35,578 bases of DNA. It comes from a virus. Positions 1,750 to 25,579 of this stretch are shown in pieces. Every line of letters starts with the position of its first letter. Position 1 is the stretch's first letter. Made by a program: the position numbers and the translations under genes. Under the pieces are notes generated by a model. The model ran no database searches, had not been told where the DNA came from, and saw only the letters and a program-made list of their open reading frames with translations. The DNA is taken from positions 1-35,578 of the IMG/VR virus record IMGVR_UViG_3300037296_000043, one strand, 5' to 3'.

Positions 1750-2338
1750 TCTGACGCCAGAGCAGAGAAAGCTGGCGGCAAAGCTCACTCACTTACAGAA
1801 GTGGACCATAATTCATTCAGTCAGTGGGATGAGCCGATACGATGGTTACAAGAAGGCTGGAGGCAAGGGGACCAAGAAATCAGCCAACAACGTGATTGGT
1901 AAGATGTTGGAAAAAGCGGCTGTGCTGGAATTTTATGACAGTTTGGTGAGCAGCGCAGCCGCAAAGTCAGTGATGACTCGCGAGGAAGCTCTGGAAACCC
2001 TGAGTAAGCTCGCTCGCACTACCGTCAAAGACGTTGTTGAATTCAAGGATGCGCAAGTTGGTCAGGACGCAGACGGTAACCCAGTTTATCAGACAGTCTG
2101 GAAGCTGAAGGACTATGACGCCATGGACGCCGGTACCGCCGCGGCTATTTCAGAGCTGAGCACCGGGCGCGATGGGTTCAAGTTCAAGCTGCACAGCCAG
2201 ACTGGCGCGATCAAGCAGCTTTCAGACCTGGAGGGCTGGGACGCTCCCAAAAAGATTGAGGGCAGCCTGGTCCTGGACGGCAACGTAGATTCGCAAGAAA
2301 TAGCAGAAGCACTCAGCAAATTGTTGGATAAGCTGTAA
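1715..2338 (+). CDS. Terminase small subunit (Terminase_2-like)
   Basis: The 207-residue protein resembles small terminase subunits. A helix-turn-helix-like N-terminus (about residues 28-65, with YDGYKKAGGKGTKKSA) matches the usual AGY-x-A pattern that binds the packaging site. A central helix pair and an acidic C-terminus complete it. It would recognise the phage packaging site and deliver DNA to the large subunit. It is directly followed by the large subunit, its stop overlapping the next start (TAATG). The start is either ATG 1715 or the ATG at 1727; both have weak ribosome binding sites and translational coupling to the holin is likely. Confidence 0.8.
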   Translation: MVATMTQTPETNLTPEQRKLAAKLTHLQKWTIIHSVSGMSRYDGYKKAGGKGTKKSANNVIGKMLEKAAVLEFYDSLVSSAAAKSVMTREEALETLSKLARTTVKDVVEFKDAQVGQDADGNPVYQTVWKLKDYDAMDAGTAAAISELSTGRDGFKFKLHSQTGAIKQLSDLEGWDAPKKIEGSLVLDGNVDSQEIAEALSKLLDKL

Positions 2339-3957
2339 TGCTGAACTGGGATGAAATGACCAATGCAGAAAAGCTGGCTGTGAAAGTGGCTTGCGAAGCA
2401 TCGTTTGAAGCCTTCATGAGAATATTCTTTCAGCTGATTCAAGGGCAGCTGTTCCGCAAGAACTGGCACCACACGTATGAATGCCGCTTGGCCGAATCTG
2501 CCTATCGCATGGAAATGCCTAGGACCATTATCAACGTGGCGCCGGGCAGCACTAAAACTGAGATCTGGTCTATACATTGGGTGGCCTGGTGCATCTTGAA
2601 GTGCATCATCGATAAACGATCTAGCCGGTGGCTTCCATTGTCCTATTCTGACGACCTGGTGAGTGAAAACGCTATTCGTGTGCGTGAGATCCTGAGCAGC
2701 GAGGAATATCAGACGTTGTGGCCGCTGACACCGTCCAAGGACACAAAGAGCAAGCACAACTGGAAGTACTTCGACGAGAACGGCAACCAGCACAGGCTTT
2801 ACGGTACCAGCATAAACGGCCAGGTAACCGGACGCCGAGCTGGTTTTATGGAAAAAGGATTCACCGGCGCTCTGGTGATGGATGACCCACTGCCGCCCAA
2901 GGACGCTGAGAGCGGTCGCCTGATCGACAAAGGCAACAAGCGCATTAACCGTATCGTTCGGTCAAGGCTGGCGCATGACGGGGTGCCCATCATTGTCGTG
3001 CAGCAGCGCATAGCCAAGGGCGACAGCACCGACTACCTGAACAGCGATAAAAGCCCGGACAAATACAAAATATTCAAAGTTCCTGCGATAATCGACGCCA
3101 GTTACCTAGACCAGCTAAACGACGAAATGCGCGAAGCCTGCATACGGGACACCGGCTTTACTGGCAAACGTTGCAGTTACTGGCCCGCCAAAGAGCCCAC
3201 GGAGACACTCCTGGCCATGGAAAAAGCAGATAACTATATGTTCAGCGCTCAATATCAACAGTCGCCAGACGATGCGCTGGCGGAAGGTGTGGTGTATAAA
3301 TCCGAAATGGAGCTGTTGATTGAGGAAAACCGTGTTGCCAACATTCCTGTTGAGCGAAGCCTTCCCGTTCATACCTATTGGGATCTTGGCATCAATGACG
3401 ATATGACGATTTGGTTGGTACAGTTTCATCAAAAGGAAATCCGTTGTATTGCCTGCTACGGCAATCGGGACGAGGGCATGGAGCATTACATCAACTGGCT
3501 GCATGACTTCCGGGACAAATACAGCATTCGGTTTGGACAGCACATGGCACCGCACGATATTGAGGTCCGGGAGCTAATTTCAGGTGAAAGCCGGTTGCAA
3601 ACAGCCAAGCGCATGGGTATTAAGTTTAAAAAAGTAGAAAGAACCAAGAGCACTCGTGAATCCATCAACGCATTGAAGGCAATATTCCAGCGTATCTGGA
3701 TCGACAAGGTGCGGTGTGACACTGACCTGGAGGGCAATCAGGGCGACATGGCCAATCACACTGGTTTAAAAGCGATCAAGGCGCTACGCCGAGTATGGGA
3801 TCACGACAACGAAACTTTCAAAGATGCGGTTGGACCCAAGTGGGCAACCAACTACACCGACGCGCTCCAACAGATGGGGCTCCATTTCAAAGAAGAAAAG
3901 CCAAAGCCTTCGAGTCCTGCGCCAAGGCCAGTCTCTGGCGGCTGGATGGGCGCTTAG
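2338..3957 (+). CDS. Terminase large subunit (packaging ATPase and nuclease)
   Basis: The 539-residue protein has the two expected domains. The ATPase part carries a deviant Walker A APGSTKT (residues 68-74, Lys73) and a Walker B strand ending in Asp182-Asp183 (ALVMDDP). The C-terminal RNase H-like nuclease part carries candidate metal ligands Asp349 (YWDLGIND), Asp407 (PHDIE) and Asp508 (YTDAL). It pumps DNA into the prohead through the portal and cuts the concatemer. Its length is normal for the family. It is translationally coupled to the small subunit and followed closely by the portal gene. Confidence 0.93.
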   Translation: MLNWDEMTNAEKLAVKVACEASFEAFMRIFFQLIQGQLFRKNWHHTYECRLAESAYRMEMPRTIINVAPGSTKTEIWSIHWVAWCILKCIIDKRSSRWLPLSYSDDLVSENAIRVREILSSEEYQTLWPLTPSKDTKSKHNWKYFDENGNQHRLYGTSINGQVTGRRAGFMEKGFTGALVMDDPLPPKDAESGRLIDKGNKRINRIVRSRLAHDGVPIIVVQQRIAKGDSTDYLNSDKSPDKYKIFKVPAIIDASYLDQLNDEMREACIRDTGFTGKRCSYWPAKEPTETLLAMEKADNYMFSAQYQQSPDDALAEGVVYKSEMELLIEENRVANIPVERSLPVHTYWDLGINDDMTIWLVQFHQKEIRCIACYGNRDEGMEHYINWLHDFRDKYSIRFGQHMAPHDIEVRELISGESRLQTAKRMGIKFKKVERTKSTRESINALKAIFQRIWIDKVRCDTDLEGNQGDMANHTGLKAIKALRRVWDHDNETFKDAVGPKWATNYTDALQQMGLHFKEEKPKPSSPAPRPVSGGWMGA

Positions 3958-3969
3958 GAGAGATACATC

Positions 3970-6066
3970 ATGTTGCCAGGCAAAGAACCGATTAAAACCC
4001 GCGATGGAGACAGCGAAGAAGACGTGCTGAAGGAAATCCGGGATCGTGCGTCCTATGCCAAAACGGCATGGCAGCATAATTTTGACGCCGCGCAGGAGGA
4101 TATTCAATTTCTGGCCGGTGAGCAATGGCCAGAGGCGATCAGGGTAGCGCGGGAACTGAAACAGCGCCCATGCCTGACCCTGAACAAGCTGCCGCAGTAC
4201 GTGGACCAGGTGCTTGGTGACCAGCGCCAGAACAGGCCCGCTATCCACGTTCACCCGACAGAGGCCAACACAGCAGGCGCAGGCGCCGAAGATCCGCAGC
4301 AGATGCCCAACATTACCGGCAAAAAGAACTACTCGCTGGCGGAGGTGTACGAGGCACTGATACGCAACATCGAATACACAAGCAAAGCCGAAATGCACTA
4401 TGACACAGCATTCCAGCACGCTGTTGAGGGTGGATTTGGCTGGTTGAGAGTGCTAACGAAGTATTCAACCGATGACGCCTTTGAACAGGACCTGTCCATT
4501 AAGAGCGTGCACAACCGGTTTGCCGTGCTTATGGACCCGGATGCAGTGGAGCCGGATTTCTCAGACTCTAACTTTTGCTTCATTGGCGAGCGGATGCGCA
4601 AAAATGAATTTCAAAAGCGCTATCCGAACGCCCGTCGCGGTGAATTGCTCGACACTGACCGTGGCGAATACTCATGGTGGGTGAGTGAAGAAGGCATAAG
4701 GGTGGCCGAGTACTTCTGGCGTGAGCCCAAAAACCGCACGCTGTTGCTGTTAAGTGACGATCGGACTGTCTGGGAAGACGAAGTAAAGCCCGTGCTCGAT
4801 GAACTGGAAGAAATGGGCGTGACGGTTGTCCGAACGCGCAAGGTGAAAACCTACATTGTGAAGTGGGCCAAGGTGACCGCTTACGACATTCTGGAGGGCC
4901 CTATAACGTGGCCAGGGCGAACCATTCCAGTAGTTCCTGTGCTGGGCAAGGAAATGACGCTGGGTGATAAAACCTATTACCGAGGTCTTATCCGGTTCGG
5001 CAAAGACGCCCAACGGATGCACAATTTCTGGATGACAGCGGCAACAGAGAAATCTGCACTGGCTCCAAAGGCGCCGTGGGTAGCAGATGCTGAATCCATC
5101 GAAGGCTATGAGCAGGAGTGGGAAAGCGCCAACGTCGAAAATGCCAGCGTACTGCGATACAACGCCCGTGCTGACATACCACCACCGCAACGCAACTCCG
5201 GCACGCCCATGCCCACGGCAGAGCTACAGATTGCCATGAGCTTCACGGATGAAATGAAGGCCACCATTGGTTTGTACGATGCCAGCGTAGGCGCACAGAG
5301 CAACGAGACAAGCGGCCGGGCAATACTGGCCCGCCAGCAGCAAGGCGATCGGGGCACGTTTGCCTACAACGACAACCTGAGCCGCGCGATCAGCCGTGTT
5401 GGTCAGATCCTGATTGAGCTTATTCCCAAGATCTACGACAGTGAGCGGGTGATTCGCGTGCAGTTTGAGGACGGCACCGGTGACTGGCTGCAGATCAACC
5501 AGACAATTATGGACGAGGAAACCGGAAAGCCCGTGATGGTCAGTGACATGGCGCAAGGGAAGTTTGACGTTACCGTGAAGTCTGGGCCCGGGTACCAGAC
5601 GCAGCGAATGGAAGCGGCCGACAGCCTAATCCAGTTTGCACAGGCCGTTCCATCGTCTGCCGCGGTGCTGGCGGACCTGATAGCCAAAAACATGGACTGG
5701 CCGGGAGCCGAAGAAATTAGCAAGCGCCTGAAGAAGATCCTGCCACCAGGCATACTGGATCAGGAAGAAGCCGACGAGCTGGGTATCAAGCCACCAGAGC
5801 CAACGCCGGAGCAACAGGCCGCTATGGCAAGGGCTGAAGCTGATATGGCGCAGGCAGAAGCTGACACCGCAAAAGCGCAGGCTGACATTGCCAAGGCCGA
5901 GGCCACAACCGCAGAAGCGCAGGCCAAGCTGGCGGAGATCGAGCGTGATGCTGCACTGGCTGGACCGGGCAGTATCGAGGAAACCGTGCGCAATCTGGTG
6001 GCTGAAGCCATGGCTGAAATCATGGCCCAAAGCCAGCAAAGCGGTGATGTTGTTGGTAACGCCTGA
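3970..6066 (+). CDS. Portal protein, P22 gp1-like
   Basis: The 698-residue protein matches P22-type portals in length (P22 gp1 is about 725) and in context, between the terminase and the scaffold. The N-terminal half includes the stretch LAGEQWPEAIRVARELKQRPCLTLN (shortened here to its ends) seen in this family. The last 100 or so residues contain a heptad-like Ala/Glu/Gln series (AEADMAQAEADTAKAQADIA) that should form the coiled-coil barrel reaching into the head. Twelve copies would make the DNA channel. The ribosome binding site AGGAG is at a normal distance from ATG 3970. Confidence 0.9.
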   Translation: MLPGKEPIKTRDGDSEEDVLKEIRDRASYAKTAWQHNFDAAQEDIQFLAGEQWPEAIRVARELKQRPCLTLNKLPQYVDQVLGDQRQNRPAIHVHPTEANTAGAGAEDPQQMPNITGKKNYSLAEVYEALIRNIEYTSKAEMHYDTAFQHAVEGGFGWLRVLTKYSTDDAFEQDLSIKSVHNRFAVLMDPDAVEPDFSDSNFCFIGERMRKNEFQKRYPNARRGELLDTDRGEYSWWVSEEGIRVAEYFWREPKNRTLLLLSDDRTVWEDEVKPVLDELEEMGVTVVRTRKVKTYIVKWAKVTAYDILEGPITWPGRTIPVVPVLGKEMTLGDKTYYRGLIRFGKDAQRMHNFWMTAATEKSALAPKAPWVADAESIEGYEQEWESANVENASVLRYNARADIPPPQRNSGTPMPTAELQIAMSFTDEMKATIGLYDASVGAQSNETSGRAILARQQQGDRGTFAYNDNLSRAISRVGQILIELIPKIYDSERVIRVQFEDGTGDWLQINQTIMDEETGKPVMVSDMAQGKFDVTVKSGPGYQTQRMEAADSLIQFAQAVPSSAAVLADLIAKNMDWPGAEEISKRLKKILPPGILDQEEADELGIKPPEPTPEQQAAMARAEADMAQAEADTAKAQADIAKAEATTAEAQAKLAEIERDAALAGPGSIEETVRNLVAEAMAEIMAQSQQSGDVVGNA

Positions 6067-13389: not shown

Positions 13390-14277
13390 ATGGCTAACCA
13401 ATTTGGTATTGATCTGGGCCAGATGTACCGCACTTCCGAAGCTATAAAGGGATCCCGGCAGACTCGAAAAAGTAATGAACTGACAATGCAGTTGGACAAA
13501 AAGGACAGGGAAAGCGCTCGCCAAAGAGGCCAAACGCTCAACCAATTGCGCTCCCGCGTAGCCGCAGGTGGTGACGATGGTGAAACCGCAGAGCGTGAGC
13601 TTATTGCTTTTGCACCAGAAGAAGCCACCAAGTTGCAGGAAGCGTTTAAAAACATGGATGATCGCCAGCGCACAGAAATGGAAGACAAGGTGGAAACCCT
13701 GGGCCGTATTGCCGCGTTTGTCATGGACGGAGGAACGCCGGAGGAACAAAGCCAGCGTTACCAGCGTGCGCGGACAAACATAAGCCCGGAAATTGCCGCC
13801 AATATGCCAGAAGAATACGATCCCAACTTTGTGCAAATGGGCCTGGCCCGCGCGCGTGAGCTGGACGACATGCTGAAAAACCCGGAGAAGATCACTTTTG
13901 GCGGCAAAGATCGTCTATACCAAGATGGTAATATGGTGGAGTCAACCACCAGCAACGCCTTGCTAAAAGCGCAAGCTGGCGGATCTGGCAGTGATTTCAA
14001 ATCAGCCGATGAAAGCCTGATGTTCCGCCAAGCCGGGGAATTGTTGGGCGGTATCTTCGATCAACAGGGCAACCTGCAAAACCTGGACCCGGACCAACGC
14101 TCAAAAGTACAGGCCATTACCACCAGAGCCGCACAGGTGTTCCAGGGCGGCGAAGCAAGCACACGTTCGCAAGCCGTTACGATGGCAGCACGCCAGCTGG
14201 GCATAAGCGTGCAGAACCTTCAGGGTGGCGGTAGTATTAAGGATCGCAACGAATTACTTGAGTTTTACAGCCAGTGA
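13390..14277 (+). CDS. DNA ejection protein, P22 gp20 position
   Basis: The 295-residue product is almost entirely charged helix and Gln-rich, beginning MANQFGIDLGQMYRTSEAIK and with few aromatic residues. It lies directly after the gp7-like gene, where P22 has gp20 (471 residues), so it is shorter. Ejection of the protein with DNA is inferred from order and composition. The open frame extends 50 codons upstream inside the gp7-like gene, but ATG 13390 follows the upstream stop and has AGGT nearby. It is followed by the giant gene after 7 bp. Confidence 0.65.
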   Translation: MANQFGIDLGQMYRTSEAIKGSRQTRKSNELTMQLDKKDRESARQRGQTLNQLRSRVAAGGDDGETAERELIAFAPEEATKLQEAFKNMDDRQRTEMEDKVETLGRIAAFVMDGGTPEEQSQRYQRARTNISPEIAANMPEEYDPNFVQMGLARARELDDMLKNPEKITFGGKDRLYQDGNMVESTTSNALLKAQAGGSGSDFKSADESLMFRQAGELLGGIFDQQGNLQNLDPDQRSKVQAITTRAAQVFQGGEASTRSQAVTMAARQLGISVQNLQGGGSIKDRNELLEFYSQ

Positions 14278-14284
14278 GGTAGTA

Positions 14285-17200
14285 ATGAGCGAAAACCAGC
14301 AGCCTTCCAAGGACCAGTTACTGAATGCGCTTGAGAAGGCGCACCTTGCGGGTGACACCGAAGGGGCAAAGGAGCTGGCCCGCTGGCACAACGAGATTTA
14401 CCAGCCACAACCGGAGCCAGAGATAGCGCAGGAAGGCCCAGGGCTGCCGCCGTTAAACCTTCAGCCTGATACTGGCAGCAAGATTGCCGACGCTGGGCGC
14501 CGTGGACCAGATCCTTCTATTGGTCCCGCAAACGATCCCGCAACTAGCCTGACAGCCGAGGAAATGGCCGCAACGCCGCAACCGTCAGATCAATCAACTG
14601 TGGCAAATACTTCAGAGCAAGTAGCGCTAAACAGGAACCTGCTAAAAGAACAGTTCCCTGAACAATACGAATCGCCTTCAGCAAGCCCGGCAAGATCGAC
14701 TCCCGGAAAGCCAGAGCAGGAATCACCGTCATTTAATGCTGCCCGTGGCGCAGTAGAGCGATCAGGTGATCTTGCGGCCGGTTTAGGCACAAGCATAAAC
14801 ACCGCAGCACAGGCCGCAGAAGATAAATTCGGAGTGGGTGGACTGGTGTGGGATGGCGAAGGCCTGATCCCAAAGTACCTCAATGCACAAGACTACTCTG
14901 ACTTTTTGGCAGAAGGCGGATCAGACCTTGGGGCCGTTGCGACAGACAATCTGAAAAATATTGATGCTGGTTATGTTCCCGAAAACACTTGGGAGTCTGT
15001 TAAGGCAGAGTTTTCGGAAGGTGGCGTTTTTAGCGCAAGCGCCTATGGGGAGGTTTTAGCCTACGGATTTGAGCAGGGAATAAAATCTGTCCCTGATATG
15101 GTTGCCGTCACTTTGTCGCTTCCCGCTTATGTGATTGCACGATCTGGTGAAATTGGTGAAACCCGAGCCCAAAATAAGGGCAAAGAAAAAGCTGAATTGA
15201 CCGACATAGTTGAGGCCGCGCCCTTTGCGCTCGGTTCCGCCATATTGGAAAGAATTGGCGCAAGAGGAATAACCCAAGCCGGAGCCGAAGCGTTTGGCGC
15301 AGCAGCCTTAAAGCGTGGAGTCAAAGCAGCTGCAAAGCGTATCGCAGCAGCCGGGGGCTCCGCGACACTGCGAGAGTCAGGAACAGAGTTTGTTCAGGAG
15401 GGCATACTTGAATATCTTGGTGAGCGATTCGGAACCGATGCAAAACTGGATGTTGCCGAAGCGTTTGACCGAGGCCTTGCGGGCCTAGTTGCTGGTGGAA
15501 CCTTTGGTGGTGCAGTGGGCACCAGTGTTGCAACTGGTAGAGAGATCGCCCGGCCATCCCAAGCGGCAGAGTTAGGACAAGCGCTAAACGAGGGTGTCGA
15601 TAACGCCGAGTTTGTGCCGGCAGACCAGGCTGTTACGGATAGTTTGGACCCTTCCCGCGCGCAGGTGGAACAAACACAGGCATCGCAGCGCCCGAGCATG
15701 GCCGAGCTTGTGTCACAAAAGATGAAAGAGCGTGGTTTTGACTTTACGCCGCGACCAGGGCAAATGCCGCCGGGCATTAATGTGCCTTTTCAGCCTGCGC
15801 AGTCACAGCAACAAGAACAAACAGTTCCTGTAGAAACTGAACGCCAACAAAATACAGAACAGCGTGAAAAAGAAATTGTGCCAGAAGAATCGCAAACCCT
15901 GGACGTTTACGCAGAAGTTCAATCAAACGGATCTTACACCGTGCTTACTACGCCAGCCGGGCAACCGTTGGACGTAAGCCCTGCGCAGAATGCGCGCATT
16001 GAGCCCGTAGCCACAAGTGTTCCTATTGAGGCGCATCGTTCACTAAAAACCAACGCAGGCCGTGAGTCTGTAGAAACACTGAAACGCAGCTACAAGAACG
16101 CTGAAGTGTCTGGCCAGCCTGTAACCGGTAACAAAGATCGTTCAAGAAAAATTACTGAGCAAACAAAGAATGCAGAAAAAGGAGAGGTTGGCGGGACTGT
16201 TGGCAGCAAAGCCATAATTAATGGACCTACAGAGCGGATTAGCTTAGATAGTACGCTTAGCCGCACCGGAAAACCAATGCGTGCCACTGGATACCGTGTT
16301 GACGGAATCGACCCAAACAAGCTTTACAGTGGTGCCCAAGTACCCATCCTTGGTGATGGGGTGTATGTTGCCCCCACCGAACAGGATGCCAAGTCATTCT
16401 CTGGAGAAGACAACTCGGTCATTGCCGAGCAAGAGGTCAATCTCAAAAATCCGCTGGTAATCAATTCGGATAGCGAGTGGCGTGCGCTGACTAAAGAAGC
16501 TGGGTGGCAGAGCCCGAACCCCTTTGGACAGTCCGAGGCTGATACCCAGAAAGCGGTCGATGATCTTCGCGCCATCCTGGCAGCCCGTGGGCATGATGGC
16601 GTGGCGGTGTTGTGGAACGACGACACCATTTACGACTTCGACGCAAAAACCGGCAATCGGATCAAGACCCTGCGGAGCGTGTTCAGTAAGCCGCAAGTAG
16701 TACAGTTCAATAACGCCAAATCTGAAGTCCCAATAGTTCGCCGCGAACAAACTACGCTTAAAGAAACAATCGAGGAGGCAGCGACCAATGAACCTACAGA
16801 ACTGGGTGAACAAGGCCCGGATTCACTGGCAGGAGAATCGGCCGAAGTTTTACCAGAGCCTGAAGGCGCAGGGAACACTGGAGCCGATGCTGAAACAGGC
16901 AGCGGAACAAACGTACCAGCAGGTGGACGAGCTGGAGCAAGCCGGGTTCCAGCCGGACGAGGCGTACCAGATGGTACGGGAGAAATACCTGTTTCCCCCG
17001 GGCGAACCGGAGAGCGAGCAGATGGACAACAACGGGCCGGCGATCCTGGACAGCGCGCTACAGACAATGAGCCGGACACTGGAAGTGGAGAACCCGCAAC
17101 CCGAGGATCAGAGGGTAATGTAGATGCGACAGAAAAAGCGGCAAAAGAAGCGCCAACGCCAAAAGGCGCAACGACGCAAAGATCAGAGCCAGCAGGTGAG

Positions 17201-20200
17201 CGTCCGGCTAAGTTCTTTACGCTAACCCCTGAAATGAACATTGGCGCCGGCGGGGCCAAAACCAAGTTCAAGAACAACTTAAAAGCAATACAGACCCTTA
17301 AACAATTGAGCGAAGAAGGGCGCCAGGCTACGCCGGAGGAACAGCAGATCCTTGCCGGTTACGTTGGCTTTGGTGGTATCCCGCAGGCGTTTGTTGGTGA
17401 TGGTGGCAAGATTACCAAAGGCTGGGAGAAAGAGACAAAGCAACTGCAGGAGGCATTGACCGATGCAGAATATGACGCGGCTCGACGTAGCACTCAGGAT
17501 GCTCATTACACTAGCCCGGAAATTGTGTCCGAGATGTGGAATGCCGTTAAGAATATGGGATTTCAGGGTGGCCGCGTGCTGGAGCCTTCGGTGGGAACGG
17601 GAAACTTCCTGGGCTTTATGCCTGGTGGTGTGCGATCAAAAAGCAGCATTGCCGGGGTGGAGTTGGATCATATCACCGGGGGAATTGCCCAAAAACTCTA
17701 TCCCGGAGCCAACATACAAGCGCCATTAGGATTTCAAGAGTTCACCATGCCGGACAATTATTTTGATCTGGCCATTGGTAACCCGCCGTTTGGCAGTCAA
17801 AAGCTGTATGACGGCAAGCGCAAATCCTTGTCAAAGATGAGCATTCACAACTATTTCTTTGCCAAGTCAATGGCGGGGCTCAAGCCCAATGGTGTGCTGG
17901 CCATGGTGGTATCCAGCCGGTTGATGGACGGCGGCAACAAAATGGCCCGTGATTACCTGGCTGATCGTGCGGACCTGTTGGGTGCTGTAAGAATGCCCAA
18001 TAACGCTTTCCTGAAAAATGCCGGTACCGAGGTCACCACTGACATTATTTTCATGCGCAAGCGTGCGGAAGGTGAGCAGGCAACGGGTGATTCCTGGTCT
18101 GTGGTGAACACTGTTCAGGATGCCAAGGGCATTGATGTGCCTTTGAATGAATATTACAGCAAAAATCCGGCAATGATGCTGGGCGAATGGGGCGCCTATG
18201 GCTCAATGTACGGGCCAAACGATCCTGCACTGGTAGCGAGGGAGGGCCAAGACACTAACGCCTTACTGCGCGAGGCGCTGGCCAGCTTGCCAAAAGGTTT
18301 TATGACCAAGGCTGGAGCTGATGTTGTAACGGAAGACGTGCAGCTGCCTACCAGCATTGAGAACGTAAAAGTGGGCAGCATGTTTATCGACGGTGGCCAG
18401 ATCAGCATTCGTCTTGAAAGCGAAATGGGAAAGGCCCGATCCGAGGCTATTGATGTACCCAGCAAAAAAGCTGAAGAACGAGTGCGCGGGCTGATTAAAG
18501 TGCGTGACGTTTTTGCTGATCTTCGCAAGGCGCAGCTCACTGACAACGTGAAAGACGAGGCGCTGGCGGCATTACGTGACCGGTTAAATCGCACTTATGA
18601 CCAGTTTGTTAGCAAGAATGGGCCGATCAACCTGGATGCCAACAAGCGATTGTTCCGGGATGACCCGACGTGGCCGCAGCTGGCGGCACTGGAAGAATCG
18701 TTTGACAAAGGCATAAGTGCAACCGTTGCAAAGCGCACCGGTGAAACATCCCGCATCCCAAGCGCCAAAAAGGCCGCTATCTTCCGCACTCGCACGCAGC
18801 AGCCGTACAAGGCGCCGGACAAGGCCAGCACAGCCAAAGACTCGCTAACCGCCAGCCTGTCAGAGAAAGGCCAGGTAGACATGGCCTACATGAGCCAGCT
18901 GTACGGTAAGACCGAAAGCGCCATTGTTGACGAGCTGGGCGATTTAATCTTTGAAAGCACGCCCAACAACTGGGAATCCCGTGACGAATACTTGTCTGGC
19001 AACGTCAAAAACAAGTTGGCCATGGCCGAACGCATGGCGAAGGACACACCGCGGCTCCAGCGCAACGTCGCCGCATTGAAAGAAATTCAGCCAGAGGACA
19101 TTGAGGCCGTCGATATTCGCGTGAAGCTGGGCGCGCATTGGCTGCCGACAGAGGTGGTGACCGCTTTTGCAAACCTCATTTTGGGTAACGAAACCGGAAA
19201 AGCGACCTACAACCCGGTTATGGCCAAGTGGTCAATCCGTGGTGGCGCAAGGGATGCGGCCGCAACGCAATACGGCACCGACCGCGCAGAAGTAAAAGAC
19301 GTTTTGACCGCTGCCGCAAATGAAAAAAGCCTTGTTATCCGTGACTCCATTGGTGACGGCAAAACAGTGCTGAACGAATCCGCCACGAACGCCGCAAACG
19401 AAAAAGTAAACCGGGTAAAGGCGGAGTTTCGCCGCTGGGTATGGTCAGACGACGCTCGCCGCGAAAGGTTAATCAGGCTTTACAACGATACGTTCAACAC
19501 GGACCGGGTGCGCGAGTATGACGGCTCACACCTGACATTCCCGGGTAAGGTAAGCGACGACATTATAAAACTGCGGCCGCACCAGGCCAATGCCGCATGG
19601 CGAATTGTTCAAAGCGGTACCACCTTGCTGGACCAGGTGGTTGGATCGGGTAAAACCTTCACCATGATCGCCGGTTCTATGGAACTGCGCCGCACCGGCC
19701 GGGCCAAGAAACCCATGTTTGTGGTACCGAATCATTTGGTTGGCCAATGGGCAGAAGATTTTACCAAGCTGTATCCAAACGCCAACATTCTGGCCGCAAC
19801 CAAACGGGACTTCGAGAAAGGCAACCGCAAGCGCTTGTTTGCCCGCATTTCTACCGGGGACTGGGACGCCGTTATTGTGGCGCATTCATCGTTTGGCAAA
19901 GTTGAAATGGACGCAGAGTTTCAAGAGCGGTTCATCAACCAGCAAATCCGCGACATTGACACGGCCATTGCCACTATCCGGGACCAAGACGGCAAGGATT
20001 CACGGTCAATTAAGCAAATTGAAAAGCAGAAAGAGCGCCTTCAGGAGCGTTTGAAGCGCCTGTTTGATTCGGAAAACAAAGACGACAACCTGACATTCAG
20101 CGAGCTGGGTGTCGATGCTTTGTTCTTGGATGAGGCGCACGAGTTTAAAAACCTGGGGTTTGCCACCGGTATGACCCGTGTTGCAGGCCTGGGAGATCCA

Positions 20201-23200
20201 AAGGGAAGCCAGAAAGCCGCTGACATGTTTATGAAGGTCCAGTCCATCCTGGAGCGCACCGGCGGCAACAACGTGATCTTTGCGACCGGCACGCCCATTA
20301 GCAACACCATGGCCGAAATGTACACGGTTCAGCGCTTCCTGGACTACCAGACCCTGCAAGACCAAGGCATTGCTCACTTTGATGCCTGGGCTCGCATGTA
20401 CGGAGAAGTAATCACGGATTGGGAGCTGTCACCCACCGGCAGCTACAAACTGAATAGCCGATTCAGCAAGTTTGTGAATTTGCCAGAGTTGATGCAGCGG
20501 TACCTGACGTTTGCAGACGTGATAAATCGCGATGACATCAACCGCCAGCTGGCGGCAATGGGAAAGCGCCTTCCGGTACCGAAAATAAAAGGCGGGAAAC
20601 CGAACAACATTATTGTCGATCGGAGTGAGGACCAAGCGGATTACATCGGTGTAGCCGTGAAAGATGAACGCGGCAATGAATCGTATCCAAGGGGATCCCT
20701 AGTCTATCGTGCTGAAAACCTGCCCAAGAAGCCGGAGAAGGGCCAGGACAACATGCTCAAGATCATGAGCGACGCGCGTAAGGCCGCGCTGGATATGCGC
20801 CTGATTGATCCAACGTTGTATGGCGACAACCCCGCCAGCAAGATAAACGAGGCCGCAGGCCGCATCAAAACCATTTACGACAAATGGACTGACGACAAGG
20901 GTGCGCAACTGGTATTCATTGACCTGAGCACGCCCAAGGCTGCAAAAACACGGGAAGCTAACCGCATACGCGACCTTATCCAGCGCTCAGAGAACGGTGA
21001 AGATGCCGCAACTGAACAACTGGACAACATGAGCCCGGATGAACTCGAAGCGCTTAACAGTGATTTTAGTGTGTATGACGACCTGCGCCAGAAGCTGATT
21101 AACCTGGGAATAGCAGAATCAGAAATAGAATTTATTCACAGCGCCAACACCGATATCCAGAAAGCAGAGCTGTTTGCCAAAGTGCGCACTGGCCGCGTCA
21201 GGGTAATGCTGGGATCTACCGCCAAGATGGGCGCCGGCATGAACGTACAGACCCGTCTGGTGGCATTGCACCACATGGATGCGCCGTGGCGCCCTTCAGA
21301 CCTTGAGCAGCGTGAAGGCCGCATTATCCGCCAGGGTAACGTGCTCTATGACCGTGACCCGAACGGTTTCGAAATCGAGATCAACCGCTATGCGACCAAG
21401 CAAACGCTAGACAGTCGCATGTGGCAGACCATTGAAACCAAAGCCCGGTTTATTGAGCAGGTGCGAAAAGGCAACTCCAGTGCCCGGGAAGTAGAAGATC
21501 TTGGCATTGAGTCATCCAACGCCGCAGAAATGAAAGCGGCATCAAGCGGCAACCCGCTTGTTCTGGAAGAAATGGACCTTCGCCAGAAGGTGAGAAAGCT
21601 GGAACAGGCAGAAGAAGAACACGATCGCGAGCAGTTCCGGGTGCGTGACGCAATTCGCCGGGAAAAAAGCATTGTTGAACGTGGCAAAAAGCGCTTGCTG
21701 CAGTTTGCGCAGGACGTGAAGAAGGCGAAGGACGCGCCAAAAGACTTTTCAATGACCGTTAACGGGAAAAAGTTCGACAAAAACAAAGATGCCGGGCAAC
21801 AGATATTGGCCGAAGCTGCAAAAATGGCAAAATCTGGTGTTGAATCCAAGGCCATTGGCAGCTATTCCGGTTTTAGTATGACGCTTGAAAACATCGACGG
21901 TACCCGGTTTGTGATATCGCTTCAGGGAGCACAGGAATACCAAGCCAACATACAAAATATCGAAGAAGCAGACGCCACTGGTGTTTCTCGCCGTGTAACC
22001 AACGCAATACTGTCCATTGATGGTAGTGCAAAAGAAACCGCCGCAAACGTAAGGTTTGCCGAAAAAGACTTGCCGCAGCTGGAAGCGCAGGTGAAGGAGT
22101 GGGAACAGGCCGAGGAACTGGCCAAAGCAAAAAGCAGGCACCAGCTGGTCATTGCCGAGTTGCAGCCAAAGAAAAAAGAGTCACAAGAGGGCGAGGTAGA
22201 CAGCGATATAAGTTCTATGGCCACTCCCATAGATTCGCCAATGCCGCAATGGCAGCCCACATACCGGATACTGGGAGTAAGCCCAAGGCGCCCAGAGTCC
22301 GGAATCATAACGGTAGGTGATCGAAATGTACGCCTGAAGCAAGAGGATGCGCCTACGCGCCGTGAAGGCATCCGAACCATGGTGATTGACCTTATTGGCA
22401 CAAGGCTTTATCAGCAAAAAATAAAAGGAAAATCAAAACTTGGGTTCTATCGTAAATCCAATAGCGAAGTAAGAATCGCAAACTTTGATGATGTTGAGGT
22501 GATGGCGCACGAGCTGGCGCACTTCCTGGACATGCACTATTCGTTCAACGAGCGTTTCACCCGGGCCTACCGTGACCCGAGATACCTCGAAGAAGTTCAG
22601 GCCCTGTCCTACACCAGCAAGGATAAGCTAAAGACAACAGAGGGATTTGCCGAGTTCGTGCGCCTGTGGTTGACGCAGTACAGCGAGGCCAAGTCCCGGG
22701 CGCCGTTGTTCACTCAGAAGTTTGAAACGGTCCTGTCCAACGACAAGCCGCTGCAAAAGAAGCTGACCAACATGCAGGAAGAAATGCACCGATGGTTTGG
22801 CCAGGGCGAATTGGCGCAACTATATGCCGCTACAAGCGGCAACCAGTATACAAAAGCACAACAGCTTTCATTGATGATTGCCCGGCGCCCGGGACAGATG
22901 TGGCGGCAGCAGTATATTGACAAGATCCACGCCGCCAAGGTGATGGGCCGCACTCTAAACGGTGACATGCGTACCGCCAGCGAGGACGCTTACAAGCAAC
23001 TTCAGCTGCTAAACGGCATTGAGGGCATAAGCCAAGAGTCGTTCAAGCACGGCGCTATGGTCATAAATGAGAATGGAGATATCACGTTCAAGGGCCCATC
23101 TCTACGTGATGTGTGGTCAAAGTCTTTGAAGTCGGGACCGAAAGTAGTGCGCGAGCAGGAACTGTATTGGGCCGCACGCCGCGCGAAGGAGCTTGCCGGC

Positions 23201-25579
23201 CAAGGCCGCGAGAACCGGATCAGCAAGGGAATGATTGACGAGGGCCTGGCCCTAGCCCGAAAGCACCCTCATTTTGTGCAGGCGTTCAGTGACTACCAGG
23301 AATACCGCAAGAACATGATGGAATTTTACGTGGATTCCGGCTATGTGACGCCCGATGCAGCTAAGGCAATGCTTAATCGCAACCGCAACTACGTCCCTTT
23401 CCATCGTGTGGTTGAGAGCGTCAACGACACCTACACCGCAGGTTCTGGCTTTCAGCGTCTCAAGGGCGGGCAGCAAAACATAAAACCAATATTCGACAAC
23501 ACGATGATGCAGGAACAGCGGCATATGTATGCCGCACTCAAGGCCAGGGCCCTGCGATCTCTGTATGAGGACGCCTTGAACAGCCAGGACAACGTGTTCC
23601 TTTCAAAGATTGGGCCAGACAGCAAACCGGTAAGAGCAGCGCTTGACCAGATGGTGTCAAAGACAGCCGGCGCCATGGCAGACCTCGGGATTACCATTTC
23701 AGAAGATGGAGTGTTCACAGGTGACGGTGAAACGATCGTAGACAAAGCAGATATTGAAGCCTACTACGAAAAAAACTCAGAAGAATTGATGTTCTGGACG
23801 TTCGGACACAAGCCAAAGACCAGCGAAACCATGGTCGATAGCTTTATAGACCGCCGCGGCAAGCGAGTATGGATTGAGATCCAGAAGGAAAACGAATTGT
23901 TGGTCGACATGCTTGACGGCATGGATAATGTGGCGCTTCCAAAAGGATCCCTTGGCACAGCCGTTAAGTTTGCCATGGCCGTGAAGAAGTTCCAAACACT
24001 GACCATTACCAGCATGGCTCAATTTGCCGGGCCAAACGCAGTACGTGACGCACAGCAGGCCTTCGTGCTGTCTGGTGGTAAGTTCGTTCCTGTGTGGGAC
24101 ACCATGAAAGGATTTGGAGCACAGCTTCACGCCTTGGTTAGCTCAAAAAGTGCATTGTCAGAGATGAGAGCGCAAGGCGGTCCCGTGGCCGGACGTGTAG
24201 GGACGTTTTATAACGACAACTGGGGGCTGGCGTCAGATTCGCCCGCTGCCCCACGCACGCCATTCTTCTACCCCACTCAATGGGCAAGCTCAGTGCTCGA
24301 CATTTACATGGCCATTGTCGATTCGTTTGAGATCGCAACCCGTGTTGGATTCTATCTCAGGATGCGGCCGACTGTTGGCGCCAGAGAAGCTGCATGGCAG
24401 GCCAGGGAGATCAGCACCGACTTCCGTAAGCACGGAACCTACGCCCCGTGGGTGCTACTGCAACGGACAGTGCCATTCCTTGGCGCCTATGTGCAGTCGG
24501 TTGATCGAGACATCAGGGCCCTGGCAGAAAACAAAGGGGAGATGAAGCTGGCCAACTTGGTTAAAACCGAAAGCGGGCGGGCAACCTTGGCCGACATGAA
24601 GGTTCGTATCTGGTTGGCCGGCAGCTTAATAATCGCCGTCACCGCCGTTCTAGCATTGTTGAACGACGACGATGATCGATACCGGGCACTGGCGCCGGAC
24701 CAGAAAGTACGCTTCTACCATTTCTTCATTGGTGGGCGTCACTACACTTTGCCCAAAGGCCACGGTTTCATTCAGCTTATTGGCCAGGGCACAGAATCGG
24801 CAATAGATGTTATCGGCCAACAGGAATCCAAAGCCGCTCAGAAGACTATGGCTTTCGCCGTTGCCTATCACTTTGGAATGGACGCTACGCCAGGCATTAT
24901 CAACCCGGTGGCAGAGATCGCACTGAACCGCACGTTCACAGGAGCGCCAGTGGTGTCTCGCTATGCAAAGGACAGGGAGCCGCGCTATCAATACGACGAT
25001 CGCACGCCGCTGATCTACGTCAACGTAGGGCGGGAGCTGAACATTAGCCCGGACAAGGCTCACCACCTGATGCGGGGCTACACCGGCTACCTGAGCGACT
25101 TTATAGACGAGGCCAGCGAAAACATGCTGTGGGACAACACTGCCTGGGGTGAACGACCCTTTGCCCGCGACTTTGCGAAGATGGCGGGTAAGCAGTTTAA
25201 TCCGCGTGACGTTCCATACCGCACCAAGTGGACCGTTGGCTATTACGAGCTACGACAGCGGGCCGCAACAGCCCAGGCGAACCTTTCGTTTTTGGGAAAA
25301 GAACAGGCAATTCGTGACCAGGAGCCGCTTAAAAATTTCGCGTCAAATGAAGTCAATGCCTCACTGGTGGCTATCAACAAAGTGTTTTCACAGATTGATT
25401 CTGCGTTCTCAAATCAAGGCGAGGTAATTGCCAGCATAAAATACAACCCAGAGCTGTCCGCCAAAGAAAAGGAAAAAGACATTGAATCCTGGTACGCGCA
25501 AAAGAACGAGGTGATGAAGGATGTGTATCAGCAAGTTGTTAAAGAAATTGAAAAAGTGGAAGCCAAGGTTTCACAATAA
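14285..25579 (+). CDS. Giant polyvalent (DarB-like) protein: ART-like, N6-adenine methyltransferase, SF2 helicase, zincin
   Basis: The 3764-residue protein is one unbroken frame. In order: Pro/Gln-rich start; Gly/Ala helices (about 311-420); an ADP-ribosyltransferase-like segment (about 652-812, with GDGVYVAPTEQDAKSF); a disordered linker (about 835-960); an N12-class adenine methyltransferase with EPSVGTGNF (1100-1108) and catalytic NPPF (1166-1169); an SF2 helicase with GSGKT (1787-1791), DEAH (1949-1952) and QREGRIIRQ (2342-2350); a metallopeptidase HELAH (2742-2746) with Glu2786/Glu2790; an LPD38-like region from about 3270 and a hydrophobic helix at 3442-3459. Such polyvalent proteins are thought to be injected and to protect or remodel DNA against host defence. 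It occupies the gene 16 (ejection) slot. Start 14285 has GAGG 5 bp upstream; the open frame's earlier ATG lies inside the previous gene. Confidence 0.9.
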   Translation: MSENQQPSKDQLLNALEKAHLAGDTEGAKELARWHNEIYQPQPEPEIAQEGPGLPPLNLQPDTGSKIADAGRRGPDPSIGPANDPATSLTAEEMAATPQPSDQSTVANTSEQVALNRNLLKEQFPEQYESPSASPARSTPGKPEQESPSFNAARGAVERSGDLAAGLGTSINTAAQAAEDKFGVGGLVWDGEGLIPKYLNAQDYSDFLAEGGSDLGAVATDNLKNIDAGYVPENTWESVKAEFSEGGVFSASAYGEVLAYGFEQGIKSVPDMVAVTLSLPAYVIARSGEIGETRAQNKGKEKAELTDIVEAAPFALGSAILERIGARGITQAGAEAFGAAALKRGVKAAAKRIAAAGGSATLRESGTEFVQEGILEYLGERFGTDAKLDVAEAFDRGLAGLVAGGTFGGAVGTSVATGREIARPSQAAELGQALNEGVDNAEFVPADQAVTDSLDPSRAQVEQTQASQRPSMAELVSQKMKERGFDFTPRPGQMPPGINVPFQPAQSQQQEQTVPVETERQQNTEQREKEIVPEESQTLDVYAEVQSNGSYTVLTTPAGQPLDVSPAQNARIEPVATSVPIEAHRSLKTNAGRESVETLKRSYKNAEVSGQPVTGNKDRSRKITEQTKNAEKGEVGGTVGSKAIINGPTERISLDSTLSRTGKPMRATGYRVDGIDPNKLYSGAQVPILGDGVYVAPTEQDAKSFSGEDNSVIAEQEVNLKNPLVINSDSEWRALTKEAGWQSPNPFGQSEADTQKAVDDLRAILAARGHDGVAVLWNDDTIYDFDAKTGNRIKTLRSVFSKPQVVQFNNAKSEVPIVRREQTTLKETIEEAATNEPTELGEQGPDSLAGESAEVLPEPEGAGNTGADAETGSGTNVPAGGRAGASRVPAGRGVPDGTGEIPVSPGRTGERADGQQRAGDPGQRATDNEPDTGSGEPATRGSEGNVDATEKAAKEAPTPKGATTQRSEPAGERPAKFFTLTPEMNIGAGGAKTKFKNNLKAIQTLKQLSEEGRQATPEEQQILAGYVGFGGIPQAFVGDGGKITKGWEKETKQLQEALTDAEYDAARRSTQDAHYTSPEIVSEMWNAVKNMGFQGGRVLEPSVGTGNFLGFMPGGVRSKSSIAGVELDHITGGIAQKLYPGANIQAPLGFQEFTMPDNYFDLAIGNPPFGSQKLYDGKRKSLSKMSIHNYFFAKSMAGLKPNGVLAMVVSSRLMDGGNKMARDYLADRADLLGAVRMPNNAFLKNAGTEVTTDIIFMRKRAEGEQATGDSWSVVNTVQDAKGIDVPLNEYYSKNPAMMLGEWGAYGSMYGPNDPALVAREGQDTNALLREALASLPKGFMTKAGADVVTEDVQLPTSIENVKVGSMFIDGGQISIRLESEMGKARSEAIDVPSKKAEERVRGLIKVRDVFADLRKAQLTDNVKDEALAALRDRLNRTYDQFVSKNGPINLDANKRLFRDDPTWPQLAALEESFDKGISATVAKRTGETSRIPSAKKAAIFRTRTQQPYKAPDKASTAKDSLTASLSEKGQVDMAYMSQLYGKTESAIVDELGDLIFESTPNNWESRDEYLSGNVKNKLAMAERMAKDTPRLQRNVAALKEIQPEDIEAVDIRVKLGAHWLPTEVVTAFANLILGNETGKATYNPVMAKWSIRGGARDAAATQYGTDRAEVKDVLTAAANEKSLVIRDSIGDGKTVLNESATNAANEKVNRVKAEFRRWVWSDDARRERLIRLYNDTFNTDRVREYDGSHLTFPGKVSDDIIKLRPHQANAAWRIVQSGTTLLDQVVGSGKTFTMIAGSMELRRTGRAKKPMFVVPNHLVGQWAEDFTKLYPNANILAATKRDFEKGNRKRLFARISTGDWDAVIVAHSSFGKVEMDAEFQERFINQQIRDIDTAIATIRDQDGKDSRSIKQIEKQKERLQERLKRLFDSENKDDNLTFSELGVDALFLDEAHEFKNLGFATGMTRVAGLGDPKGSQKAADMFMKVQSILERTGGNNVIFATGTPISNTMAEMYTVQRFLDYQTLQDQGIAHFDAWARMYGEVITDWELSPTGSYKLNSRFSKFVNLPELMQRYLTFADVINRDDINRQLAAMGKRLPVPKIKGGKPNNIIVDRSEDQADYIGVAVKDERGNESYPRGSLVYRAENLPKKPEKGQDNMLKIMSDARKAALDMRLIDPTLYGDNPASKINEAAGRIKTIYDKWTDDKGAQLVFIDLSTPKAAKTREANRIRDLIQRSENGEDAATEQLDNMSPDELEALNSDFSVYDDLRQKLINLGIAESEIEFIHSANTDIQKAELFAKVRTGRVRVMLGSTAKMGAGMNVQTRLVALHHMDAPWRPSDLEQREGRIIRQGNVLYDRDPNGFEIEINRYATKQTLDSRMWQTIETKARFIEQVRKGNSSAREVEDLGIESSNAAEMKAASSGNPLVLEEMDLRQKVRKLEQAEEEHDREQFRVRDAIRREKSIVERGKKRLLQFAQDVKKAKDAPKDFSMTVNGKKFDKNKDAGQQILAEAAKMAKSGVESKAIGSYSGFSMTLENIDGTRFVISLQGAQEYQANIQNIEEADATGVSRRVTNAILSIDGSAKETAANVRFAEKDLPQLEAQVKEWEQAEELAKAKSRHQLVIAELQPKKKESQEGEVDSDISSMATPIDSPMPQWQPTYRILGVSPRRPESGIITVGDRNVRLKQEDAPTRREGIRTMVIDLIGTRLYQQKIKGKSKLGFYRKSNSEVRIANFDDVEVMAHELAHFLDMHYSFNERFTRAYRDPRYLEEVQALSYTSKDKLKTTEGFAEFVRLWLTQYSEAKSRAPLFTQKFETVLSNDKPLQKKLTNMQEEMHRWFGQGELAQLYAATSGNQYTKAQQLSLMIARRPGQMWRQQYIDKIHAAKVMGRTLNGDMRTASEDAYKQLQLLNGIEGISQESFKHGAMVINENGDITFKGPSLRDVWSKSLKSGPKVVREQELYWAARRAKELAGQGRENRISKGMIDEGLALARKHPHFVQAFSDYQEYRKNMMEFYVDSGYVTPDAAKAMLNRNRNYVPFHRVVESVNDTYTAGSGFQRLKGGQQNIKPIFDNTMMQEQRHMYAALKARALRSLYEDALNSQDNVFLSKIGPDSKPVRAALDQMVSKTAGAMADLGITISEDGVFTGDGETIVDKADIEAYYEKNSEELMFWTFGHKPKTSETMVDSFIDRRGKRVWIEIQKENELLVDMLDGMDNVALPKGSLGTAVKFAMAVKKFQTLTITSMAQFAGPNAVRDAQQAFVLSGGKFVPVWDTMKGFGAQLHALVSSKSALSEMRAQGGPVAGRVGTFYNDNWGLASDSPAAPRTPFFYPTQWASSVLDIYMAIVDSFEIATRVGFYLRMRPTVGAREAAWQAREISTDFRKHGTYAPWVLLQRTVPFLGAYVQSVDRDIRALAENKGEMKLANLVKTESGRATLADMKVRIWLAGSLIIAVTAVLALLNDDDDRYRALAPDQKVRFYHFFIGGRHYTLPKGHGFIQLIGQGTESAIDVIGQQESKAAQKTMAFAVAYHFGMDATPGIINPVAEIALNRTFTGAPVVSRYAKDREPRYQYDDRTPLIYVNVGRELNISPDKAHHLMRGYTGYLSDFIDEASENMLWDNTAWGERPFARDFAKMAGKQFNPRDVPYRTKWTVGYYELRQRAATAQANLSFLGKEQAIRDQEPLKNFASNEVNASLVAINKVFSQIDSAFSNQGEVIASIKYNPELSAKEKEKDIESWYAQKNEVMKDVYQQVVKEIEKVEAKVSQ
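16788..17123 (+). CDS. Embedded +1-frame gene inside the giant gene, 111 residues
   Basis: This frame lies wholly inside the giant gene, shifted by +1. It has ATG with GGAGG 9 bp upstream and a stop at 17121. The product looks like a folded helical protein, with evenly spaced Trp, Tyr and Phe: NWVNKARIHWQENRPKFYQ, then TYQQVDELEQAGFQPDEAYQ and MVREKYLFPPGEP. The giant protein in the same stretch reads as a low-complexity Gly/Ala/Glu/Pro linker, which suggests that the embedded frame is the constrained one. The sequence style recalls small proteins encoded with such giant genes in other phages, but I cannot name a family and do not assign a function. Confidence 0.7.
   Translation: MNLQNWVNKARIHWQENRPKFYQSLKAQGTLEPMLKQAAEQTYQQVDELEQAGFQPDEAYQMVREKYLFPPGEPESEQMDNNGPAILDSALQTMSRTLEVENPQPEDQRVM

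Follow-up and report, generated by a model that had tools for sequence, protein, structure and literature searches.

A conserved small gene nested out of frame within a giant DarB-like antirestriction gene

The giant gene of a phage DarB-like, DNA-protecting protein contains a second, overlapping gene for a small protein predicted to be helical. The same nested gene is found in phages, plasmids and conjugative-type elements of very different bacteria, suggesting that the two proteins work together. We analysed a window of 35,578 nucleotides, the virus record IMGVR_UViG_3300037296_000043. On its plus strand, the ORF 16788-17123 comprises 111 codons, begins with ATG and is preceded by a GGAGG Shine-Dalgarno (SD) sequence (16774-16778) with a spacing of 9 nt. 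It lies in the +1 frame of a 3784-residue ORF (14225-25579, plus strand). The product of the latter matches DarB-like polyvalent antirestriction proteins, with matches to an Eco57I-type methyltransferase (17738-17974, residues 1172-1250), a ResIII/SNF2 helicase (19565-20149, residues 1781-1975), Helicase_C (21116-21337, residues 2298-2371) and LPD38 (24671-25120, residues 3483-3632). In the overlap (16787-17122, residues 855-966) the host frame reads NEPTELGEQGPDSLAGESAEVLPEPEGAGN..., a G/A/E/P-rich stretch, as the earlier note had described. The first nearly invariant glycines of the region preceding the methylase (residues 213 and 216 of the examined segment) lie about 40 codons after the nested stop.

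The observation of the earlier note, a 111-codon overprinted frame with a good ribosome binding site, is confirmed. The length of this frame alone proves nothing, since the window contains 84 ORFs of 90 residues or more and 1144 of 2000 host-synonymous codon shuffles keep the +1 frame open. Conversely, only 3 of 2000 small-synonymous shuffles keep the host frame open, indicating that the host frame is kept open across a stretch written for the small gene. What exceeds chance is conservation. The note had named in advance three outcomes that would count against the gene, namely a lack of homologues in other phages, stop codons in the +1 frame of close relatives and no suppression of synonymous change over the overlap, and none of them was observed.

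A tblastn search found the small protein in 21 records of 12 phages, at 39-55% identity. In all 11 phages whose records were examined, the long open frame has the same offset to the small one, and in none of them is the small ORF annotated as a gene of its own. Ten of the 11 annotate the long gene on that strand, in two pieces for Sinorhizobium phage PBC5 (NC_003324.1). In Pseudomonas phage Itty13 (NC_070969.1) the annotated hypothetical proteins are on the opposite strand, whereas a frame of 2765 residues is open through the examined stretch on the strand of the giant gene. In PBC5 the upstream part of the giant gene lies in the small frame and, by BLAST, the frame changes just before the small start (about 3957-4001), which splits the giant gene and fuses its upstream part to the small domain. 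The older PBC5 record also has the small domain only as the end of orf33, and the data are compatible with either a sequencing error or a real fusion. This fusion is probably the source of a match of the host protein to phrog_938 "endolysin" (profile length 2185, PBC5 gp22 about 2180 residues), which was not taken as indicating function.

Profile scans yielded 77 viral and 27 bacterial-genome loci. Including the window and the phages, there are 98 distinct copies, of which 89 are nested with the same offset, none with the other and 9 are not nested (loci L060, L101, L105, L108, L112, L114, L115, L116 and L119 of our collection). Among the latter, the Pseudidiomarina copy of L115 (5974-6762, 262 residues) is extended by a hydrophobic-looking C-terminal region and its sister copy in L114 is interrupted by a stop, while the L119 copy (2083-2634) has an N-terminal extension and lies beside a 947-residue SNF2 helicase encoded on the other strand. 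In a sample of 394 genomes of one family, that of L093 (Shinella), the profile matched 5, two of them weakly. A plasmid search with the window protein gave no match.

To examine which frame is under selection, differences per site were counted in four groups of relatives (5, 6, 11 and 5 sequences). Outside the overlap, third positions of the host frame vary most (0.254-0.684). Inside, the host third position becomes the least variable (0.109, 0.030, 0.087, 0.164), whereas the first, which is the third of the small frame, is the most variable (0.217, 0.145, 0.224, 0.311). Amino-acid differences over the overlap are also smaller in the small frame (0.195, 0.067, 0.124, 0.282) than in the host frame (0.305, 0.172, 0.277, 0.422). 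Sliding windows over 2,294-3,429 alignment columns, with L022 and L036 left out of their groups and every third window considered outside the overlap, show a negative difference of third minus first position only at the overlap, including one window straddling its edge in the fourth group. Three windows at overlap edges were slightly positive and some windows had too few codons. The same flip is seen in three Campylobacter plasmids (host positions in the overlap 0.283, 0.110, 0.063; downstream 0.053, 0.030, 0.183), whose ORF occurs in 212 plasmid records. A relative of this ORF is present in the Helicobacter suis plasmid pHS_2 (2501-2791), in the +1 frame of a shorter hypothetical gene (850-2856).

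Start signals are likewise conserved. An SD core 4-11 nt before the start is present in 82 of 88 nested copies (PBC5 and the 9 non-nested copies were left out), against 550/6291, 67/643 and 635/6071 internal ATGs of the same genes in frames +1, +2 and 0, about 10%. Starts are ATG in 80 and GTG in 8 copies. In 17 of 87 copies (L118 also left out) an in-frame stop lies within 5 codons upstream. Internal initiation is the simplest reading of these data, although translation itself was not measured. A published C. jejuni Ribo-seq study (PMC11955535) provided no test, since it used strain NCTC11168 and pTet is not mentioned.

An AlphaFold2 model built with 87 sequences gives helices 3-17, 19-28, 31-51 and 56-67, with block pLDDT of 86-93 over residues 1-70 and a low-confidence tail (mean pLDDT 76.7, pTM 0.55). 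By contrast, the host frame over the overlap (residues 61-172 of a modelled 321-residue segment, 44 sequences) has block pLDDT of 41-57 and no helix or strand except for its last residue, while the blocks from residue 211 to 290 exceed 90. Thus, the predicted folded product is the nested one and the host linker is predicted disordered. Searches of the PDB by sequence returned only a designed repeat protein (E 0.0068) and a weak hit. Foldseek returned no PDB match at E<=0.001 and, in the viral library, a single one, the unnamed Q8W6J4_2 (E 2.8e-7), presumably the PBC5 fusion, though this was not checked. Creb_binding, perm_prefix_1 and other weak profile hits were below cut-off and were disregarded.

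To avoid selecting on the ORF, we next searched with the methylase region alone. Of the best 79 of 568 viral loci, 77 contain the upstream DNA. In 68 of these the small-gene profile (A2) matches at E<1e-3, always nested, and the other 9 have an unmatched +1 ORF of 88-146 residues at the same place, three of them scoring weakly with the profile. However, the 22 rows of the methylase alignment come from hosts that carry the ORF, so this viral census leans to relatives. Over 72 distinct loci, +1 ORFs of 75 residues or more cover 62/72 at 400 nt before the methylase match and +2 ORFs 0/72; away from this peak the +1 coverage is 4-27 of about 72. Among 13 more distant phage and plasmid hosts, 8 have a +1 ORF of 90 residues or more 5' of the methylase (one, L260, with a profile match), two have 69-residue ORFs and three (L261, L265 and L268) have none. 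For most of these, ORF presence alone is weak evidence. In a B. vietnamiensis plasmid (L262) the small ORF (2519-2899) is partly annotated as a hypothetical protein (WP_196481225.1, 2597-2902) just before the helicase gene, which is annotated as starting after it. A profile comparison of TnpV with the plasmid/8P-type group gave no support for kinship, and this group rests on position, offset, its alignment with the A2 profile (probability 66) and, for Campylobacter, the codon test.

The family is related to TnpV (Pfam PF14198) of Tn4451-type elements, as the two profiles align at hhalign probability 90.9 and E 1.1e-6 over 51 columns. The window protein itself scores 17.5-18.2 bits on PF14198, below the curated cut-off of 27, whereas the nested ORF of L110 (Eubacteriales) scores 39.1. 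In Clostridia-type genomes, PF14198 matched 15 of 60 genomes at 23 places, of which 10 are nested in a long ORF with the same offset, 10 are not and 3 were not classed. Methylase matches were found at 65 places in 46 of 148 genomes of the class. A first analysis with 1.5 kb of upstream DNA showed any +1 ORF in 15 of 33 bacterial loci and a +2 ORF in none. With longer upstream DNA, 29 of the 65 places and 2 from a proteobacterial class (a match in 13 of 229 genomes) were examined, and in 28 of these 31 a TnpV or A2 match is nested +1. Four of these matches are weak (E 2e-5 to 4e-4) and in one locus (L315) the TnpV match begins 12 codons before the long frame opens; L339, L343 and L344 have none. 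All seven Firmicutes host proteins scanned with Pfam have helicase domains, and a methylase match was listed for six, below the cut-off in four. That these hosts lie in conjugative elements follows from the families and was not tested here.

A possible unoverlapped state was found in Bacteroidota-type genomes. The best solved-structure match of the nested protein model is PG0816 (PDB 2apl; Z 7.0, rmsd 2.3, 64 aligned residues), a DUF1896 (PF08989) protein by profile (E 6.3e-25). Since Z 7 is common for helical proteins, this resemblance leaves a shared fold undecided. In 148 genomes of the phylum of L106 (a Chlorobiaceae MAG; Bacteroidota), DUF1896 occurs at 5 places in 4 genomes, and all 5 lie directly 5', on the same strand, of a methylase-helicase ORF of 1775-1862 residues, as a separate gene with at most about 45 nt of possible overlap. 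Sequence kinship was not shown: hhalign did not join DUF1896 to the nested family (E 0.5, with only 5 DUF1896 sequences), and two of these sequences gave weak TnpV-profile scores of 10.4 and 7.4 bits. If they are nevertheless one family, the overlap would have arisen when the big gene gained N-terminal domains across an older small gene, which is an inference.

In phage P1, the large methylase-helicase DarB is packaged with companions, Ulx among them (PMC9024508, PMC12810830), and Ulx is listed as aiding DarB localization (PMC9024508). However, the ulx gene is 3' of darB and not nested, Ulx gives no significant match to the A2 or TnpV profiles, and no +1 or +2 ORF of 50 residues lies 5' of the P1 methylase match. 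Ulx was therefore rejected as the homologue, and the comparison is an analogy only. Out-of-frame nested phage genes with their own start signal are exemplified by lambda Rz1 in Rz. Here, the nested gene keeps its frame and partner across phages, plasmids and conjugative-type elements of several phyla, and the host segment is a linker. No description of this nesting was found in our searches of the open-licence literature, including the papers on TnpV.

Collectively, these data make the coding status of the ORF near certain, and the interpretation of the earlier note, a separately initiated small gene whose coding need dictates the host linker, is supported. Its suggestion of a regulator, immunity factor or partner is untested, but constant linkage to the methylase-helicase core, in elements that share little else, favours a dedicated partner made in step with it; the note foresaw neither the kinship with TnpV nor the recurrence in conjugative elements and plasmids. 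Our best explanation, held with a probability of about 0.6, is that the ORF is translated by internal initiation from the giant gene's mRNA and yields a small protein, with a four-helix N-terminal part, that serves as a dedicated assembly, loading or regulatory subunit of the methylase-helicase encoded just downstream in the other frame. Conservation, frame, start signal, dominance of the small frame in selection, kinship with TnpV, recurrent position 5' of the methylase core in phages, Clostridia-type elements and some plasmids, and predicted disorder of the host linker are established by computation. That the protein is made separately, that it binds and serves the methylase-helicase, and that the overlap arose when the big gene gained an N-terminal extension reading over an older neighbouring gene are inferences, as no expression, interaction or phenotype data were available, and its biochemical role is not defined.

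Other explanations could be considered. The nested protein could be an independent effector, for instance an inhibitor of another host defence or an excision factor, that merely shares the transcript. Indeed, the 10 free TnpV matches and seven phage-type copies without a methylase match in the DNA examined (L101, L105, L108, L112, L114, L115 and L119) are compatible with this view. Tn4451 TnpV has been postulated to act in excision (PMC3158075), a role not assayed here, and DUF1896 proteins were found near AcrIIA9 homologues (PMC6739104). Nevertheless, the recurrent position 5' of the methylase core, also seen for DUF1896, is hard to explain without a functional tie, and we consider this possibility unlikely. 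Programmed +1 frameshifting, giving a truncated N-terminal giant protein ending in the small domain, could be suggested by the PBC5 record and by a median open stretch of 24 codons upstream of the start. It is very unlikely given the conserved SD and start codons, the close upstream stops and a conserved alignment that begins at the start codon, although slippery sites were not searched for. It is equally improbable that translation of the ORF matters only for regulating or pacing translation of the giant gene, as its position in a predicted disordered linker before the enzymatic core might suggest, since the amino-acid sequence is conserved (20 invariant columns in 13 proteins, 4 in 87) and copies outside the giant gene exist. 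Finally, a chance ORF in GC-rich DNA is refuted by homology, the codon-position flip and SD conservation.

A broader view, which is possible but tentative, is that DarB-like antirestriction enzymes of phages, plasmids and conjugative elements are two-component machines. Their small subunit, known only as TnpV, DUF1896 or not at all, would be an ancient gene read over by N-terminal extension of the big gene, so that hundreds of annotated giant genes would hide a second gene. In S. suis, cargoes integrated in the snf2 gene of conjugative elements carry TnpV genes (PMC9815147), and free-standing TnpV genes of mobilizable elements may then act in trans on the helper element's enzyme. The finding exposes an annotation gap and shows a nested gene recurring in three kinds of mobile element. 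It points to an unrecognised component of a widespread counter-restriction system and would give an orphan family, TnpV, a physical partner and a testable role.
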